Shown in pieces: positions 2,113-58,297 of a stretch of 58,297 nucleotides of DNA; position 1 is the stretch's first letter; each line of letters starts with the position of its first letter. This stretch comes from an uncultured Bacilli bacterium (GTDB lineage: Bacteria; Bacillota_I; Bacilli_A; RF39; UBA660). The translations under genes were made by a program, and so were the position numbers. The notes beneath the pieces are model-generated. The model ran no database searches and was not told the DNA's origin. It saw only the letters and a program-made list of their open reading frames with translations. The stretch lies in assembly GCA_947626565.1 (NCBI GenBank), contig CANQSQ010000007.1:1-58297 (forward strand). The letters are read 5' to 3'.

Positions 2113-3801
2113 ATGAATATAAAAGAAACCAATGAAACAAAAATTGTTGTTTTAGGTGGTTTAGGAGAAGTCGGAAAAAATATGTATTGTATAATGCATA
2201 AAGATGCAATTGTTGTTATTGATGCCGGTGTAAGTTTCCCAGAAAGCGAACTTATGGGAGTAGATTACGTTTTACCTGACTTTACCTTTTTAAAGGACAA
2301 TGAAGATAAAATAAAAGCTTTATTAATTACTCATGGTCATGAGGATCATATCGGTGGTATTCCTTTTTTACTTCAAAGTGTTAATATTCCAGCTATATAT
2401 GCCCCTAATCATGCCAAAGAATTAATAGCAGTAAAATTACAAGATCGTAACATTAGATATGACAATTTATTTGTCTATACCGAAAATACTAAACTAAAAT
2501 TCAAAGAAATTGAAGTTGAATTTTTTAGAACAACACATTCTATTCCAGACTCACACGGAATAAGTATTACTACTCCTGATGGTACTATTGTCACTACAGG
2601 AGATTATAAATTTGATTTAACCCCTATCGGTCCTATGGCTGATTTATACAAGATGGCTTGTCTTGGTGAAAAAGGGGTTGACTTACTAATAGGTGATTCT
2701 ACAAATGCTTTAAATGAAGGTTTTTCTAACAGTGAATCCGTTGTTGATGAAACCCTAGGAGAAATGTTTGATAAATGTAAAAATTCAAGAATTATTATCG
2801 CAACTTTTGCTTCTAACATTTATCGTGTTAAACATATCTTTGAAACTTGTTACAAGCATAATAGAAAAATTTGTATATTTGGAAGAAGCATGGAAAATAA
2901 CATCAATATCTCTTTAAATGGAGGTTACATTGATCATAAAGAACTACTCATCACACCAGAAGAAGCTAATAATTTAAAACCTAATGAAGTAACAATACTT
3001 TGTACTGGTAGTCAAGGAGAACCTTTAGCAGCTCTTTCTAGAATTTCTAATGGTACCCATAAACAAATTAAGCTTCGACCTGATGATGTTGTTATTTTCT
3101 CATCAAGTGCCATTCCTGGCAATGCTCTAAGTATATCTAAAACCATTAATAAATTATATTTAAAAGGTGTTAAAGTTTACACGAATAATTATTTAGCTGA
3201 CCTACATACTTCAGGACATGCTAATGAAGAAGAAGTAAAATTAATGATTCGCTTAATTAAACCTAAATACTTAATGCCCTTTCATGGCGACTATCGTATG
3301 TTAAAAAAACAAGCAGATATTGGTATTAATTGTGGTATTCCTAAAGAAAATACTTTTATCTTAAAAAATGGTGATACTCTTCTTCTAAAAAATCACATTA
3401 TTACTAGAGGACCAAGTTATTCCGGTAATGATGTTTATGTCGATGGTAATAGAATTGGAGAAATAGGTAGTGCTGTAATTAAGGATCGTCAAATTATGTC
3501 TAATGATGGTATCTTAGTAGTAATTGTTAACGTTAATATGAAAAAACGAGAACTATTAATAAAACCAAATATTACTACAAGAGGCTTCATTCTAGTCAAT
3601 GAAAATGAAGAATTAATTCATAAGATTGAAAATAAAGCAGAACAAACCATAAAAAATTCTTTAAATGATTCTAAAGCCAATTTTGCCAGTCTTAAAAATG
3701 ATATCACAGATAATTTATATCCCTTCATTTATAATTTAACTGGTCGTAAACCTATCATTTTACCAATTATATTAGATATCAAAAAAGAATCATCTAACTA
3801 A
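2113..3801 (+). CDS. rnjA: Ribonuclease J
   Basis: RNase J is a metallo-beta-lactamase-fold ribonuclease with 5'-3' exonuclease and endonuclease activity, central to mRNA decay and rRNA processing in Firmicutes. The zinc-binding motif HGHEDH is at residues 74-79, and further metal ligands are visible in TGDYKFD and in the HTSGHA and PFHGDYR segments that form the beta-CASP/MBL site. Length 562 is normal (555 in B. subtilis RnjA). The gene is monocistronic, with its own promoter and terminator, and transcribed opposite to ftsY. RNase Y, the other main decay nuclease, is encoded 500 bp downstream on the other strand. Whether this is RnjA or RnjB cannot be settled without seeing a second copy. 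Confidence 0.96.
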   Translation: MNIKETNETKIVVLGGLGEVGKNMYCIMHKDAIVVIDAGVSFPESELMGVDYVLPDFTFLKDNEDKIKALLITHGHEDHIGGIPFLLQSVNIPAIYAPNHAKELIAVKLQDRNIRYDNLFVYTENTKLKFKEIEVEFFRTTHSIPDSHGISITTPDGTIVTTGDYKFDLTPIGPMADLYKMACLGEKGVDLLIGDSTNALNEGFSNSESVVDETLGEMFDKCKNSRIIIATFASNIYRVKHIFETCYKHNRKICIFGRSMENNINISLNGGYIDHKELLITPEEANNLKPNEVTILCTGSQGEPLAALSRISNGTHKQIKLRPDDVVIFSSSAIPGNALSISKTINKLYLKGVKVYTNNYLADLHTSGHANEEEVKLMIRLIKPKYLMPFHGDYRMLKKQADIGINCGIPKENTFILKNGDTLLLKNHIITRGPSYSGNDVYVDGNRIGEIGSAVIKDRQIMSNDGILVVIVNVNMKKRELLIKPNITTRGFILVNENEELIHKIENKAEQTIKNSLNDSKANFASLKNDITDNLYPFIYNLTGRKPIILPIILDIKKESSN

Positions 3802-9736: not shown

Positions 9737-10097
9737 ACAATAAATATAAATAAGCCATGTTCTGTTCCTATTACTAGGCGACAAACATTTATCTACCAAC
9801 AAATAGTTAGTCTTCAATTCCATTCAATTCTTTCCTTGAAACTCCCCTACCAAATTTGGGTTTCTCGCTCGCGGGGTTTACCACGTTTCACTTTTTCGTT
9901 TCCAAAAACATCGTCACTGTGGCACTTTATAGTCTATTCCTTATCTATAAGACTTAGGACATCAACTGTCGTTAGTTAATAACTACCCTAGGTTATTTAT
10001 TCCCTAGGCACGAACACTACAATCATCGCAGATTGTGCGAGCATGGACTTTCCTCAAGGATTTTTAAAATCCCAGCGTTTGTCTATATATTAATTGT
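9737..10097 (-). ncRNA. rnpB: RNase P RNA (type B)
   Basis: The minus strand carries the hallmark type B elements in order: GAGGAAAGTCCATGCTCGCAC (5' conserved core), TAGTGTTCGTGCCTAG, AAAGTGCCACAGTGACGA, GAAACGTGGTAAACCCC, GAGCGAGAAACCCAAATTT, and near the 3' end GGAACAGAACATGGCTTA. The ends are placed by the P1 helix: ACAATTAATATA (minus, 10086-10097) pairs with TATATTTATTGT (9737-9748) with one mismatch. About 361 nt long, it is the catalytic RNA that trims tRNA 5' leaders. P1 overlaps the gpsB stop codon, so co-transcription with gpsB and processing is likely. Confidence 0.95.
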
Positions 10098-48198: not shown

Positions 48199-48408
48199 AA
48201 AAAAAACGAATATTCAATCCTAAGGACGAAATATTCGCGGTACCACCTTAATTCATAAGACAACTTATGCTCTTTTTAACTATAACGTCGTTAACGGATA
48301 TTTCTCCTAATAGTGTATTTCATTTATAATTACCTCTTAGTTTTCACCAACCACTAAGTCTCTAAAATAATAATTACAACTACTAAGCTATTAATCACCA
48401 AAATTTAT
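48199..48408 (-). promoter_or_regulatory. Tyrosine T-box riboswitch
   Basis: The minus strand holds a complete T-box leader: the T-box sequence AAGGTGGTACCGCG (48236-48249); a terminator CGAATATT/AATATTCG (48207-48214 with 48230-48237) followed by nine T (48198-48206); and a stem I region with AGTAGT and a specifier loop reading GAAA-UAC-ACUAUUA, where UAC (48315-48317) is a Tyr codon followed by A. Uncharged tRNA-Tyr would stabilise the antiterminator and switch on the CYTH-tyrS operon. The specifier agrees with the downstream tyrS. Confidence 0.93.
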
Positions 48409-52098: not shown

Positions 52099-52102
52099 AT
52101 TG

Positions 52103-52111
52103 TGTTATACT
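52103..52111 (+). promoter_or_regulatory. Extended -10 promoter of the fem operon
   Basis: TGTTATACT (TGn plus TATACT), 28 nt before the first fem gene. No clear -35 is visible, because a T-run of the preceding terminator occupies that place. Confidence 0.5.
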
Positions 52112-52138
52112 AATATTATAAGAAAGGTGAAAAGTATC

Positions 52139-53455
52139 ATGTTAAAGCTTACTAATATAAATAAAGAAGAATTTGATAATTTTGTTGTTAATCATCCTAC
52201 TAAATCTCATTTTCTTCAATCATTATCTTGGGGAGAATTTTCCAAAGTAAAAAAGAAATTAACCCCTTATTATTTAGGACTAGTTAATGAAGACAATAAA
52301 ATAGTCGCTGCTACTCTTCTTTTAGAAAAAAAACTTCCTTTAAATTATTGTTACTTTTATGCTCCTCGTGGCTTTGTTATTGACTATAACAAAAAAGAAC
52401 TACTTCGTACTATGACTTCCAAAGTAATTGATTTTGCTAAAAAAAAGAAAGCAATTTTTGTTAAAATTGATCCCGATATTATTATAAAAAAATATAATTA
52501 CAACAATGAAGAAATACCACTAAATAATAATCATGAAGATATTTTTAATACTTTAAAGGAACTAGGTTTTAAACATCAAGGCTTTACTAAAAATTTTGAA
52601 ACTATGCAACCTCGTTATACCTTTCGCATTGACTTGACTCAAGATTTAGAAACAATTGAAAGTCATTTTTCTAAAACTACAAAACAACGTATTCAAAAAG
52701 CTTTAAAACTAGATACTGATGTCGTTATTGGTACTAAAGAAGATATTCATGAATTTTATCATTTAATGACTTTAACAGAAAATAGAAAAGATTTTATATC
52801 TTATACCGAAGACTATTATGAAACCTTATATGAAATTTTTAATGGTAATAAGAACTCTAAAGCTACTTTATTTTTAGGTAAAATTAATCTTAATAAAACT
52901 ATTAAGGCTTTAGAAAAAAATTTAAAAGTAATTAATAATCAAATATCTATTTTACCTATTGATAATCTTAGTAAAAGTGCTAAAGCTAAATTAACAGAAT
53001 TAACCAAACAAAAAGATAATATTAAAAATGAAATTGAAAAATATAAAAACTATAAAAAGGAATATGGTAATGAATTAACTTTAAGTGCTCATATGATTAT
53101 TGAATATGGTGACAAAGCCTGGGTATTATATGCTGGAAATCACAATATCTTATCAGAAACTTATGTTAACTATAACACCTACTTCGAGCATCTAAAGTAT
53201 TGTAAAGATAAAAATATAAAAATATATGATCAATTCGGTACTATAGGTGACTTATCCAAAGATAATCCTCGTCTAGGTCTTCATGAATTTAAGAAGAAAT
53301 TTGGCGGTGATTATGTTGAATTTATGGGTGAATGGGACTATGTAACTAATAAATTTATGTATTTTATTTTTACTAAACTTGTTCCTTTTTATCGTAATAT
53401 GGTAAGAAAACGCAGTAAGAAGGAGCTTAAAAATGAAGTTAGAAATAATAAATGA
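52139..53455 (+). CDS. FemX/MurM-like aminoacyltransferase (copy 1)
   Basis: Fem-family enzymes use aminoacyl-tRNAs to add amino acids to the stem-peptide side chain of lipid II, building cross-bridges. The protein has the double GNAT-like FemAB fold: HPTKSHFLQSLSWGEF start, YAPRGFVIDY, then KTTKQRIQKALK, an inserted antiparallel coiled coil (about residues 240-305) as in FemA, and a closing KFGGDYVEFMGEWDYVTN. Length 438 fits. The start at ATG 52139 follows AAAGGTGA. It overlaps the second copy by 23 nt. The amino acid added cannot be deduced. Confidence 0.93.
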   Translation: MLKLTNINKEEFDNFVVNHPTKSHFLQSLSWGEFSKVKKKLTPYYLGLVNEDNKIVAATLLLEKKLPLNYCYFYAPRGFVIDYNKKELLRTMTSKVIDFAKKKKAIFVKIDPDIIIKKYNYNNEEIPLNNNHEDIFNTLKELGFKHQGFTKNFETMQPRYTFRIDLTQDLETIESHFSKTTKQRIQKALKLDTDVVIGTKEDIHEFYHLMTLTENRKDFISYTEDYYETLYEIFNGNKNSKATLFLGKINLNKTIKALEKNLKVINNQISILPIDNLSKSAKAKLTELTKQKDNIKNEIEKYKNYKKEYGNELTLSAHMIIEYGDKAWVLYAGNHNILSETYVNYNTYFEHLKYCKDKNIKIYDQFGTIGDLSKDNPRLGLHEFKKKFGGDYVEFMGEWDYVTNKFMYFIFTKLVPFYRNMVRKRSKKELKNEVRNNK

Positions 53456-54734
53456 AAAAGACTTTAAAAAATTTGCTGATAAACATGAACAAATTACTTT
53501 TCATCAAACCAAAGAATGGGCAGCTTTAAAAAAAGTTAATAATTGGAATTCTTATTACTTAGCTCTAAAAGATAATAAAAAAATTATTGCCGCAACAATG
53601 ATTTTATCTAAAGAATTACCTATTATTAAAAAGAAAATGTTTTATGCTCCTCGTGGTTTTTTAATTGATTATCACAATAAAGAATTATTAAGAGAATTTA
53701 CAGAAAAAATAACTAAATTTGCTAAGGAACAAAAAGCTATTTTCTTAAAAATAGATCCCTATGTTCCCTACAAAGAACATGATAATAATGGTAACATAGT
53801 AACTGATGGTTTTGATAATAGTGATTGTATTCAAAATTTAAAAGACTTAGGCTATAAACATTTTGGCTTTAATCTTATGCAAGATACCCTTCAACCACGT
53901 TGGATGCATGTAATAGATACTGAAAATAAATCTATAGAAGATGTTATGAAAGATATGGAGTCTAAAACCAGACAAATTATCCGTAAAAATGAAAAGTCTG
54001 GTATCGTAACTAGAGAAATTACTAGAGAAGAACTACCTATTTTTAAAGATATTATGCAACATACTTCGGATCGTCGGGAATTTGTTGATCGACCCCTATC
54101 TTATTATGAAGCCATGTGGGATAGTCTTCATGACAGTGGTATTTTAAAAATTATCATTGCTGAAATTGACTTTACTATATTTGAAAAAAATACCACAACC
54201 GATTTAACTCAAATTGAACAAAGTTTAAAAGATCGTCGCTACAAAAAAGAAAATAATATTTTAAAAATGAATGAAAAAAAATATGCTCAAGCCAATAAAC
54301 ACGATGAAGAAGAAATACTCCGTTTACAAGAACAATTACAAAAAATTGCTGAGTACAAAAAAGAATATGGTAATAAAACTACGTTAGGAGGAATTCTTTT
54401 CTTAATTTATGGTAATGAGGTATTATCACTTTATGGTGGTTCTTTAGCAAAACTAATGCAATTTCAATCTGCTTATTCTACTCATTTTGCTGGTATAAAA
54501 TATGCTGTTGAACATCATTATAAAAAATACAATTTTTATGGCATAACAGGAGATTTTCGTCCAGAAAATTCTCTATATGGTTTATATCTATTTAAAAAGA
54601 GCTTTGGCGGTACCGTTGTCGAATTAATAGGTGAATTTGATTTAATTGTAAATCCTTTTTGGTATCATGCCTATAATTTTGCCTTTAATTCATACCACAC
54701 TCTAAAAAACTTTAAAAAGAAATTAACAAAGTAA
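53433..54734 (+). CDS. FemX/MurN-like aminoacyltransferase (copy 2)
   Basis: A second full Fem enzyme, 433 aa, is parallel to copy 1 throughout: QITFHQTKEWAALKK, YAPRGFLIDYHNKE, SKTRQIIRKNEKSG, coiled-coil insert (about 255-310) and the closing SFGGTVVELIGEFDLIVNP. AAGGAG lies inside the end of copy 1, and the genes are translationally coupled. Such pairs resemble MurM-MurN or FemA-FemB, which add successive residues of a branched cross-bridge. Membership is certain; the division of labour between the copies is inferred. Confidence 0.93.
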   Translation: MKLEIINEKDFKKFADKHEQITFHQTKEWAALKKVNNWNSYYLALKDNKKIIAATMILSKELPIIKKKMFYAPRGFLIDYHNKELLREFTEKITKFAKEQKAIFLKIDPYVPYKEHDNNGNIVTDGFDNSDCIQNLKDLGYKHFGFNLMQDTLQPRWMHVIDTENKSIEDVMKDMESKTRQIIRKNEKSGIVTREITREELPIFKDIMQHTSDRREFVDRPLSYYEAMWDSLHDSGILKIIIAEIDFTIFEKNTTTDLTQIEQSLKDRRYKKENNILKMNEKKYAQANKHDEEEILRLQEQLQKIAEYKKEYGNKTTLGGILFLIYGNEVLSLYGGSLAKLMQFQSAYSTHFAGIKYAVEHHYKKYNFYGITGDFRPENSLYGLYLFKKSFGGTVVELIGEFDLIVNPFWYHAYNFAFNSYHTLKNFKKKLTK

Positions 54735-54786: not shown

Positions 54787-57705
54787 TTACCTGCCACAAA
54801 TACTAGTATTGATACCATAACGATAAATGTAAATAGTTACCTTGTGAGTATTAGCCATATTTCCAGCATTGTCCCAAGCACGAGATTGAAGAATTGCTTT
54901 ATCATCACTAGAATATAAAAAATACATATCATTCTTCGAAACACCACTAATGTCTATAACTTCCTCATATTGTGAAATATTCCAATATCCATAAGCATTA
55001 GTTATACACATATTTACAGTACAATCAGCTCCAGAACACCAAGAACTAGCTATGCCACATCGACCACCTGTAAATGTACAAGAATAAGTTGGCGTCGTAT
55101 CAAAATTAATTTTAGGTGGATCTTTATCAACAAGAGGTGCCATAAGACAATCATCAGTATTTCCTACGTTATCATTTACTAAAAGCCAATCAATCAAAGT
55201 TGTCTCTGTATAAGTTTTTGTAAACCTAGACCTTGGACATCCACTATGATCATCTTTACAATAAGCTCCTAATGTTCTATCAGCCGACGTCCAATTACCA
55301 ACAATGTCTCCATTATAACAAGTAGGAGGTGTTTTATCCACGTAAACATTATAAGAACAAGTTTTTTTATTACCAGCATTATCAAATATATCAACTGATC
55401 CCGTCTTTGTTGTAGTACTATATGTCGTATCATAAGATGCTTTGGCACAACCACTTCCGCCTGTATCACTACAAGCTTGGCTTATGGTTCTATTATTAGC
55501 CGTCCAAGCCGTTGTCGCATTTTTGGCATATCCACAAGTTGGGGCTGTTGTATCAACTTTAACTGTTTGATTGCCAGGACAACTAGCTGAGTTTCCTGCA
55601 TTATCATAAACCGTACCTGGTGAAGCAGTAGTACTATTAGTATTAGTTTTAAATTCTTTTGTAATATTTTGCTTACATCCACTAAGATTATCACTACATG
55701 TTCCATATAATGTCACCGACTTATTAGTCCAACCACTTTGTCCACCACTAGAAACACAAGTTGGTGGGGTCTTATCAACTTTAAATGTCTTAGAACACTT
55801 ATTTTCATTACCAGCACTATCTTTTACATAACCATACCAAGTAACTCCTCCTGTATCACCCTGAGTAGCGCTAGCGGTACTATTATACGTAATGCTAGTA
55901 GAGGTTGTTAAACCATAAGTTGCTACACCACTGCTTCCTTTATCAGATCTTGCTAAACTAATACTTACATTCTTAGCTTTATACCAACCAGTACTATTAT
56001 CATAGGTACCACTTAAATTAATACTACAACTTGGTGGTCCCTTATCTATTTTAATTTTCGTTGAAGAATTACTTGAACAGTTTCCAGCTTTATCACAATG
56101 TCTTAAATAAACATTTTCATTTCTCTCGGCACTAAATGGAGTCGTTGTAAATGGTGATTTGGCAGAATTATTATAAGTTGTCCAGGTACTAGTGGAATCA
56201 TATTTATATTGCCAATAATTATAACCAGACATGGTTTCATTTGTTTTAACTGTTAAACTAAAGTCTTTATTTGTCCAATTGCCATTCGTTGGATTAGTAA
56301 TTTCTGGTTTTGTTGGAGCGGTTCTATCAAGTGGAGCTGTGATATCTATTGAAACTGTATTACCAGCTTCATCAGAAATACTATATTTACCCATTCGATA
56401 ACCTTCATCAGCGAAATATGTATCTGTTGAACCACTTGTCTTAGCAAAGTTGGTCGTACTCTTCTCTGTTAAATTATTAGCGGCACTTTGAACTAAATTC
56501 TTCTTATTATATTGCCAAGTCTTAGAAATATTACCAGTAGTATCTGAATAAGTTATTTCATAATAAATACCATATGGATACTTTTCTTTATTTAACCAAC
56601 CATTAACATTATTAGTATATGATGACATAGAAGCACTTGGTTTACTATCACTTACAGTAACACTCGCAACAGCTGCCGTATTTTGCTTATTACCTTTACT
56701 ATCACGTGGATAAGCCTTTATCGTTAACGTTGGTTTTGTTTTATCAATATATACTTGAACGGTACAAGTTGTTTCATTACCTTGCTTATCTCTAATTACT
56801 ATTTGTCCTGATTTCGCATCAGCTGTGAAATTCTTTGTAAATGTCTCTCTAGCACAACCGATTCCATCTCCATCATCACAGCCCACTGTTACTTTTCTAA
56901 CACCATTTTTAGCTGTAATCCATGGAATATGACTAGTTGCATTAGCTTTATACTCCGTTTCTGATGTATATACACATTTTGGCGCCTTAGTATCGGCGTA
57001 ATTATGTGTACCAGTTGCTTTCTCCGTAATACCATACATATTAGTAGCATTTACTACGACTCTTAAATAACCTGGTGTATATTTCTTTAAATCTAAATGA
57101 ACACTTATACTAGTTCTCTGTTTTCCCTCAACGGAGCCACTATTAATTACTTCCCGCCAAGCCGATGAAGTGTTTTCTCGATAAGAAACAATATAATCAT
57201 AACCAATTATTTTATTACTATCAGTAATGGATATATCAACTCCAGCATTATTAAAAGAATTATTATAAGTAATGGTTATCTTAGGCTTTAAATCTTTAAA
57301 CTCCTCTTTAGATGTATAACTAGGACAATCTAGGTAAGTAAGATATGTATAATCACTCTTGGAATATTTGAAGATTTGTACATAAGATTTTTCCATATCA
57401 CATTCATTATCATTATAATCTTTAATCGTCTCTGAAATATATTTAGAGTTCAACAAATCTTTTAATGGAATCTTTACCTTTTGACCAACATTTTTAGGTA
57501 ATTTATTCCTGTTTTTTTGACCATACGACTGCGCCGCTAGAGTTAGATTCTCTTTTTGCTTTTCATAAAACTCATTACGGGCTTTTTCTAATAATTTACT
57601 AACTGAAGCAATAGAAATCATCATCAATATTCCAAGTATCACTACAACAGCTAATAACTCAACCATGGTAAATCCTTTACTTTTTTTCTTTCGTCTCGCC
57701 ATCAT
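54787..57705 (-). CDS. Type IV prepilin-like protein with Ig-like repeats
   Basis: The 972-residue product begins with a type III/IV prepilin signal: a basic leader (RRKKKSKG), then FTMVELLAVVVILGILM with the Gly-Phe cleavage site and conserved Glu at +5, and a pilin-like helix to about residue 60. The mature part is huge for a pilin. After a globular domain to about 240 come roughly eight repeats of 60-80 residues built around DKTPPTC, DxxGNxxxC and paired Cys, as in bacterial Ig-like domains of surface adhesins. It may be a pilus-tip adhesin or a surface protein that uses the pilin export route. Prepilin peptidase and pilus ATPase are not in the window. Confidence 0.85.
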   Translation of the reverse strand: MMARRKKKSKGFTMVELLAVVVILGILMMISIASVSKLLEKARNEFYEKQKENLTLAAQSYGQKNRNKLPKNVGQKVKIPLKDLLNSKYISETIKDYNDNECDMEKSYVQIFKYSKSDYTYLTYLDCPSYTSKEEFKDLKPKITITYNNSFNNAGVDISITDSNKIIGYDYIVSYRENTSSAWREVINSGSVEGKQRTSISVHLDLKKYTPGYLRVVVNATNMYGITEKATGTHNYADTKAPKCVYTSETEYKANATSHIPWITAKNGVRKVTVGCDDGDGIGCARETFTKNFTADAKSGQIVIRDKQGNETTCTVQVYIDKTKPTLTIKAYPRDSKGNKQNTAAVASVTVSDSKPSASMSSYTNNVNGWLNKEKYPYGIYYEITYSDTTGNISKTWQYNKKNLVQSAANNLTEKSTTNFAKTSGSTDTYFADEGYRMGKYSISDEAGNTVSIDITAPLDRTAPTKPEITNPTNGNWTNKDFSLTVKTNETMSGYNYWQYKYDSTSTWTTYNNSAKSPFTTTPFSAERNENVYLRHCDKAGNCSSNSSTKIKIDKGPPSCSINLSGTYDNSTGWYKAKNVSISLARSDKGSSGVATYGLTTSTSITYNSTASATQGDTGGVTWYGYVKDSAGNENKCSKTFKVDKTPPTCVSSGGQSGWTNKSVTLYGTCSDNLSGCKQNITKEFKTNTNSTTASPGTVYDNAGNSASCPGNQTVKVDTTAPTCGYAKNATTAWTANNRTISQACSDTGGSGCAKASYDTTYSTTTKTGSVDIFDNAGNKKTCSYNVYVDKTPPTCYNGDIVGNWTSADRTLGAYCKDDHSGCPRSRFTKTYTETTLIDWLLVNDNVGNTDDCLMAPLVDKDPPKINFDTTPTYSCTFTGGRCGIASSWCSGADCTVNMCITNAYGYWNISQYEEVIDISGVSKNDMYFLYSSDDKAILQSRAWDNAGNMANTHKVTIYIYRYGINTSICGR

Positions 57706-57728: not shown

Positions 57729-57757
57729 AGTATACTATAATTAATTATTTTTTACAA
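57729..57757 (-). promoter_or_regulatory. Promoter of the prepilin-like gene
   Basis: On the minus strand TTGTAA (57752-57757), 17-nt spacer, TATACT (57729-57734), 24 nt before the ATG. Confidence 0.65.
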
Positions 57758-57764
57758 TAAAAAT

Positions 57765-57788
57765 CTACCAGCCTAGCTGGTAGTTTTT
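57765..57788. terminator. Bidirectional hairpin terminator at the edge of the non-coding region
   Basis: Stem CTACCAGC/GCTGGTAG (57765-57772 with 57776-57783, loop CTA) followed by TTTTT on the plus strand and ATTTTTATTG on the minus strand. No plus-strand gene leads into it, so it more likely stops leftward transcription from the non-coding region. Confidence 0.7.
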
Positions 57789-58233
57789 CATAAGTGTAGA
57801 TTATTATTGAAAGTGCACAATTGTTGTGCAATTAGTTTTAGAATTTATTTATAAGCAAATCATTTACAATAGGCAGTGATAATTCGTCATACTTGTTGTA
57901 ATATCTTATTTTTAAGATATTACAGTTTTAATTAGAATTATCACTGGGTTCCTATTGTCAATGAGGAATTGTAAATAAATTAATTGACTTTTTTCATTTT
58001 TCTAGTATAGTAATTAAAAATTACTTTAAGATATAGGAATTGTGCACTTACATTTAAAAATATTGTTCCTATATGTTTTTAGCGTGTTTTACTTTGTAAT
58101 TTTATATACTTTTTTTATGATTTTTGTTGATTTTCAATTTAAAATTTGTGCATTTTCTTTTAAAAATAAACTATTTTGACTCAATTGCACTTATTTGTGC
58201 ACTTTACTTAAAATTTAACGAGTTTTTCATAAG
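57782..58233. repeat. Non-coding segment flanked by a 13-bp direct repeat
   Basis: AGTTTTTCATAAG occurs at 57782-57794 and again at 58221-58233. Between them lie TTGTGCA-type motifs in both orientations (57813-57820, 57824-57830, 58040-58047, 58146-58152, 58195-58202), a TGCACAA/TTGTGCA hairpin (57814-57830), an ATATAGGAA/TTCCTATAT inverted repeat (58031-58039 with 58066-58074) and the nested structure at 57862-57976. The 592-base stretch from 57706 to the window end otherwise contains no gene that I can support. Confidence 0.5.
57862..57976. other. Nested inverted repeats, candidate structured RNA
   Basis: Three perfect arms are nested: ACAATAGG/CCTATTGT (57866-57873 with 57951-57958), CAGTGATAATTC/GAATTATCACTG (57874-57885 with 57935-57946) and an inner TGTAATATCTTA/TAAGATATTACA (57897-57908 with 57913-57924). 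An alternative outer stem ATTTACAAT/ATTGTAAAT (57862-57870 with 57968-57976) competes with the first. There is no protein-coding potential. The element could be a switch-like RNA, a single-stranded DNA recognition fold or a mobile-element end. No known family is recognised. Confidence 0.55.
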
Positions 58234-58296
58234 CCCTATAAGGGCCTGTTTCTGGCAAGCACTAGTTTGTGCTTGAATGGCCGCCGACTGCACTCT
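58204..58296 (-). CDS. Possible C-terminal fragment of a gene cut by the window end
   Basis: A minus-strand frame open from the window edge reads 30 codons (RVQSAAIQAQTSACQKQALI then GLMKNSLNFK) before TAA. Base composition rises to near 50% GC only here (58233-58297), unlike the rest of the window, and a CAAGCAC/GTGCTTG hairpin (58256-58262 with 58269-58275) lies inside. It could be the end of a transposase or other transferred gene, or simply non-coding structured DNA. Very uncertain. Confidence 0.2.
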   Translation of the reverse strand, partial: RVQSAAIQAQTSACQKQALIGLMKNSLNFK

Positions 58297-58297
58297 A

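Follow-up and report, generated by a model that had tools for sequence, protein, structure and literature searches.

A relative of the plasmid single-strand origin ssoA inside an IS30-type MITE of an uncultured gut Bacilli bacterium

Single-strand origins have been studied as parts of plasmids and ICEs, and they are said to limit plasmid host range. The ssoA type (palA), known from pT181, pE194, pC194, pSSU1 and pER36 of Streptococcus thermophilus, is about 160 nt long, folds when single-stranded and is primed by RNA polymerase (PMC5703833, PMC4595007). Two motifs are described for such origins: recombination site B (RSB, TTTATGCCGAGAAAA), which is typical of them, and CS-6, TAGCGA (PMC6395029). 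On the plasmids, ssoA lies behind a mob or rep gene. The origins ICEBs1 sso1 and ssoT/ssoU offer a parallel of another kind, that of a folded ssDNA origin on an integrated mobile element, behind a relaxase gene (PMC4595007, PMC5703833). In the DSO-gene-SSO elements of staphylococcal plasmids, a gene bordered by ssoA moves between replicons, but this movement was proposed to proceed by replication and recombination without a transposase (PMC5037232), whereas the origin-like hairpins described here lie inside transposase-mobilised units. Inverted repeats of an insertion sequence (IS) beside a single-strand origin can alter plasmid host range, a different case of the same theme (PMC12016507). Our search of the open literature found no single-strand origin published as part of an IS or MITE.

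We analyzed a stretch of 58,297 nt (the window) from an uncultured gut Bacilli bacterium whose genome (G000) spans 1.32 Mb in 56 contigs. Within a small non-coding mobile element, the window carries a hairpin with a 140-base folded core (57842-57981, + strand). The core comprises, in order, an outer stem, an internal loop (AGCAAAT/GAGGAATT), a middle stem, a GGTT bulge, an upper stem, a further internal loop and an apical stem-loop. The + strand folds as RNA at -52.8 kcal/mol, compared with -20.7 +/- 2.9 for shuffled sequences (z -11.3), and the - strand also lies far beyond its shuffles (z -8.6). The first-pass annotation had thus been right that the structure is strong, and equally that no gene accounts for it, as the ORF list of the window contains none that covers the hairpin. 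The closest gene, on the - strand, is a 972-aa ORF (54787-57705) whose N-terminus resembles that of a prepilin (GFTMVELLAVVVILGILMMISIASV) and whose extracellular part is long and repetitive; its near end is at 57705. Elsewhere in the window, two overlapping and mutually similar ORFs of 451 and 433 aa (52100-54734, +) look like FemAB-type peptidoglycan bridge enzymes, and two Rfam matches exceed the gathering score, RNase P class B (9746-10091, -) and a T-box leader (48219-48407, -).

The same annotation had proposed a switch built on mutually exclusive pairings. Every complementarity it named exists: two 12-bp stems (57874-57885/57935-57946 and 57897-57908/57913-57924), a nested pairing of ACAATAGG (57866-57873) with CCTATTGT (57951-57958), and an alternative pairing of ATTTACAAT (57862-57870) with ATTGTAAAT (57968-57976). 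The exclusivity, however, holds on paper only. The nested pairing has a probability of 0.998, whereas forcing ATTTACAAT onto ATTGTAAAT raises the energy from -52.8 to -37.6 kcal/mol, a penalty of 15 kcal/mol with RNA parameters (P ~1.6e-10) and of about 8 kcal/mol with DNA parameters. Conservation points the same way: across 16 homologues, 95.3% of cells are paired in the nested structure, a level reached by 0 of 500 shuffles, while the alternative helix is paired in 78.5% of cells and equalled by 51 of 500. The free TTCCT/AGGAA hairpin that was to form in the alternative state shows no compensatory, two-sided change among the homologues. A regulatory switch, for which the complementarities of this one copy speak, was therefore rejected on energy and conservation alike, and we give it almost no chance. 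A known regulatory RNA is unsupported, since Rfam 15 returned only weak microRNA matches under the gathering scores, and these are chance matches of an AT-rich hairpin; a retron msr/msd likewise, no reverse transcriptase having been recognized among the ORFs adjoining the window copy or in the neighbor clusters, which were partly profile-scanned. Compared by conserved motifs and by part of the neighbors, attC/integron sites, REP/RAYT, 6S-like RNA, omega-RNA and retrons did not fit.

Homology instead places the hairpin with ssoA. The ssoA of the five plasmids named above is, like the window copy, an imperfect hairpin of about 150 nt with the same order of stems and internal loops and a GGTTC bulge, and covariance models match reciprocally. 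Model R1, in which 13 of 16 rows are of the MITE type, found its best match at the single-strand origin in each of six plasmids (E 2e-7 to 3e-4, filters off), among them pSSU1 (2.4e-7), pER36 (3.3e-6), pT181 (1.7e-5), pE194 (1.5e-4) and pC194 (3.4e-4). With filters off, nothing significant appeared on pUB110 (ssoU), pTA1060 or pTA1040 (ssoT), and an identity with ssoU or ssoT was rejected on this ground. Conversely, model R2 drew on 35 RSB-bearing sequences alone, including pT181 and pER36 and no MITE-type copy, with an alignment guided by R1, and pE194 and pC194 were held out. In the 58-kb window it matched 57838-57986 on the + strand with 103.2 bits (E 1.4e-22), compared with 29.2 bits on the - strand, which orients the hairpin, and 19.9 bits at the next place. 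All E-values are approximate, as the calibration was short. Other MITE-type copies scored 80-107 bits and the held-out pE194 and pC194 67 and 64 bits, so that the window copy ranks above both plasmids. We conclude that the hairpin is homologous to the ssoA of pT181, pC194, pE194, pSSU1 and pER36.

The relatives of the hairpin support this placement through their arms. In most relatives outside the MITEs, the 5' arm contains TTTATGCCGAGAAAA and the 3' arm contains GGAAATTGGAATAA or AGGAATTGGAATAA. The plasmid arms are identical to those of these RSB-bearing relatives: pT181 (at 3771, immediately past mobV) and pE194 have TTTATGCCGAGAAAA and GGAAATTGGAATAA exactly, and pC194 has them with a single difference. 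Searched as a gapped pattern in GTDB genomes, the two arms gave no fewer than 118 matching stretches, most of them from Firmicutes, including Macrococcus, Lysinibacillus and Thomasclavelia, and in Streptococcus agalactiae, S. gordonii and S. oralis the matches lie directly behind MobV relaxase genes. By BLAST, small plasmids of Macrococcus and Streptococcus carry the hairpin, which in pSSU1 starts a few bases past mobV.

The window copy has the long imperfect hairpin of ssoA, with its conserved stems and bulges, but differs from it in motif and setting. Its RSB has at least 6 mismatches, compared with 0-2 in all 35 relatives of alignment A4 (27 exact, the remainder with 1-2), and RSB is lost in all 13 MITE-type copies as well. 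Aligned with the RSB-bearing relatives, the 3' partner of the RSB arm (57963-57980, +) reads GAGGAATTGTAAATAAAT in place of GAGGAATTGGAATAAAT, with 3 mismatches to the canonical arm. The outer stem of the MITE type has been rebuilt through changes on both arms (ATAAGCAAATC against GAGGAATTRTAAAT), with the GAGGAATT part kept. CS-6, TAGCG(A/T), is absent from the distal part of the window copy and of 13 of 13 MITE-type copies; since 34 of the 35 RSB-bearing relatives, pER36 among them, also lack it, this absence weighs little. The loss of RSB weighs more because RSB is tied to recognition, and recognition by the polymerase may be altered or lost in the window copy. With both motifs missing, the window copy is a derivative of ssoA and not a bona fide ssoA. 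It also lies in a transposon on a chromosomal-looking contig and not on a rolling-circle replicon, although other members of the family do occupy rolling-circle or mobilizable replicons.

The transposon could be delimited from the host genome itself. Nine contig ends enter the left side of the element by 73-77 bases, beginning with TGTAGATT, and ten begin in its right side, which ends in TTTAACG, giving a copy number of about 9-10. Seven left and right ends, those of the window copy and of six further copies, are joined as pairs by identical repeats of 13-14 bp. From these pairs and duplications we define the element as 57795-58220 (+), 426 bp without a gene, flanked in the window by a 13-bp target-site duplication (AGTTTTTCATAAG, 57782-57794 and 58221-58233). 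The remaining host copies are collapsed in the assembly, so that their interiors are not seen; at their ends they are near-identical. A subterminal repeat (AAGTGCACAATTGTTGTGCAA, 57811-57831, +) has an inverted counterpart (AAAGTGCACAAATAAGTGCAA, 58185-58205, -), occurs in the genome at element ends of both kinds and is probably a transposase-binding site. The insertion splits another dispersed repeat (TCTACCAGCCTAGCTGGTAG...CCCTATAAGGGC..., 57756-57794 and 58221-58297), interrupted at the target site and continuing to the contig end at 58297; this repeat is present at four contig ends of the genome (C6, C7, C39, C40) and weakly in G007 and G002.

Full copies of the MITE were recovered from G006, G029, G139, G312 and G067, and those of G006, G029, G139 and G067, which are genus or family genomes, have duplications of their own. 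Autonomous relatives occur in G229:C1 and G285:C38. In two family genomes (L090, L091) the same ends stand about 1.6 kb apart, with 13-bp duplications, around an ORF of about 400 aa that scores above the cut-off as an IS30-family transposase (NCBIfam NF033563). A 15-bp inverted repeat (GCAATTTATTTGTCA/TGACAAATAAATTGC) also surrounds the transposase gene at these loci (L090 1290-1330/2575-2597; L091 1405-1435/2690-2712). As its ends match those of IS30-family insertion sequences of about 1.6 kb, the window element is an IS30-type MITE: short, non-coding, with the ends of an autonomous IS and target duplications at several sites. Its long target duplications recall IS1630 of Mycoplasma fermentans, an IS30-family element with duplications of 16-26 bp (PMC3317919), and its ends are common with copies encoding an NF033563 transposase. 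It differs from these in its 426 bp without an ORF, in its 13-14 bp duplications and in that no cognate transposase was found in its genome, where the best IS30 transposase in the ~93% complete assembly has 39% identity. The first-pass annotation had considered that the hairpin might be the end of a known insertion sequence. It is not an IS end, but it does lie in the interior of an IS-derived MITE, which accounts for the arrival of the hairpin and not for its conservation.

The hairpin itself is a separate, conserved module, and DNA searches found it without the MITE ends and in other settings. At least two further MITE types are built around it. The first measures about 240 bp, with TGTTAATCC/ATGTCACC ends and duplications of 15-18 bp (8 copies in G286); the second measures about 381 bp, has TGTGAAATGG ends and duplicates 13 bp (4 copies in G049). 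In alignment A1 (16 hairpin copies, 47 pairs), 24 of the 47 pairs changed on both sides, a result matched by 0 of 500 shuffles; the covariation on which the first-pass annotation had proposed to check its reading is thus strongly present. Alignment A4 raised this to 40 of 47 pairs. R1 detected the hairpin in 46 of 386 family genomes, and R2 gave a match in only 17 of 395 genomes of the class.

These data bear on whether the hairpin is a mere relic, captured by a MITE from a small plasmid as random filler, functionless and conserved only since its copies are young. The conservation of the MITE copies could indeed reflect recent spread in part: the copies of the host genome are near-identical at their ends, RSB is lost and CS-6 absent in all 13 MITE-type copies, and no MITE-type copy is on a known plasmid or phage, neither the search of plasmid and phage collections with the whole MITE nor the IMG/VR pattern search for the MITE-type hairpin having given a match. 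However, from one genus to another, MITE-type hairpins have diverged at many sites yet keep their pairing, with two-sided changes in 11 of 51 pairs among these copies alone; the G006 element is visibly better conserved in its hairpin half than elsewhere; and the module is found again in no fewer than three MITE types and in several IS families. We therefore regard a relic as unlikely.

To place the module among its genes, we surveyed 57 hairpins, non-redundant by core, that have an ORF no more than 60 nt away (a few loci were counted twice, as the same contig in two collections). The neighbors encode IS3 transposases, IstB of IS21, IS110, IS30 and ISNCY proteins, a TnpB-like protein, relaxases, replication proteins, and a family of 167-186 aa next to serine recombinases. 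RSB-bearing versions lie directly behind transposase genes of IS3, IS21, IS110 and ISNCY in related gut Bacilli, often beginning, in sense orientation, within a few bases of the stop codon. At L139, near-identical repeats of about 26 bp (AGAAAAAATGAAG[A/T]CTTCCTTTAATTA) enclose both an ISNCY transposase gene and the hairpin, which places the hairpin inside the IS. At six IS3 loci the hairpin is followed by a conserved right end (GTGTCTAAAAACTTGACATAAATCCA), past which the flanks immediately diverge, marking the IS3 boundary on that side.

Several neighborhoods stand out in their own right. At L143, L175, L233 and L236, members of the 167-186 aa family (MRENISELAKN...), which matches no Pfam or NCBIfam entry, terminate immediately ahead of ssoA-type hairpins, with serine recombinases near several of these loci. 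MvaI/BcnI-like restriction endonuclease genes adjoin ssoA-type hairpins in several gut Bacilli (L160, L163, L239, L191; Pfam match for L163). At L133 (G349:C86), two ssoA-type hairpins with about 1.3 kb between them point in opposite directions; one follows an IS110 remnant, the other an IS3 transposase gene.

The hairpin is carried by IS families for which circular or joined-end intermediates are known. An IS-borne origin might then serve transposition itself, with the hairpin priming the second strand of circles or abutted-end intermediates of IS3, IS21, IS30 and IS110, and such a role would suit where it lies, within the ISNCY element and, in IS3 copies, ahead of the conserved right end. 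Yet we know of no ssDNA circle established for the IS3, IS21, IS30 or IS110 families, and in the same families most copies are without the hairpin, including the IS30 copies of L090 and L091. We judge this role distinctly improbable.

An RNA role can be weighed against the same survey. The hairpin would then function either as a structured element at the 3' end of transposase transcripts or as a small RNA made from the MITE, acting for example in mRNA protection or RNA polymerase titration. For 34 of the 63 adjacencies, the gene runs in the same direction as the hairpin and terminates at its 5' side, as the RSB-bearing copies just past transposase stop codons exemplify, and type-A MITEs keep a promoter-like TTGACT-16-TATAGT after the hairpin (57984-58011, +; aligned in L025, L041, L043 and L044). 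Against this, the putative promoter reads rightward, away from the hairpin; in 15 of the 63 adjacencies a gene on the opposite strand faces the 3' side, so that the hairpin is antisense to it; no Rfam family covers the structure; and the same structure behind relaxase genes and on plasmids has its known function in ssDNA. An RNA role thus seems to us rather improbable. The putative promoter, TTGACT-16-TATA(A/G)T across type-A MITEs, is aimed at a short hairpin that is AT-rich and carries a T run (58028-58082), and a transcript of about 70 nt from this unit (57984-58082) is possible.

Taken together, the region is the interior of an IS30-type MITE and its hairpin a diverged relative of the ssoA of rolling-circle plasmids, which would probably act as an origin once single-stranded. 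Of the roles named by the first-pass annotation, a folded single-strand DNA substrate thus comes nearest: homology brings the hairpin close to plasmid single-strand origins, and its origin activity is what we infer from that kinship. In double-stranded chromosomal DNA the hairpin would be inert. If the + strand of a replicon carrying the MITE became single-stranded, through rolling-circle replication, mobilization or uptake, the hairpin would fold and could let the host RNA polymerase prime second-strand synthesis. With a portable origin of this kind, a transposon would aid the completion of the plasmid or IME that it has entered, and so spread along with it. A broader version is possible, though we hold it to be doubtful: that functional, portable single-strand origins are a standard module of IS and MITEs in gut Bacilli, acquired independently by several IS families and enabling second-strand completion of any ssDNA replicon on which these elements land. 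A covariance model is now at hand for finding such origins without annotation. If transposons carry single-strand origins, the host range for rolling-circle replication and mobilization can change by transposition; this would also provide a simple assay for the contribution of a "non-functional" MITE.
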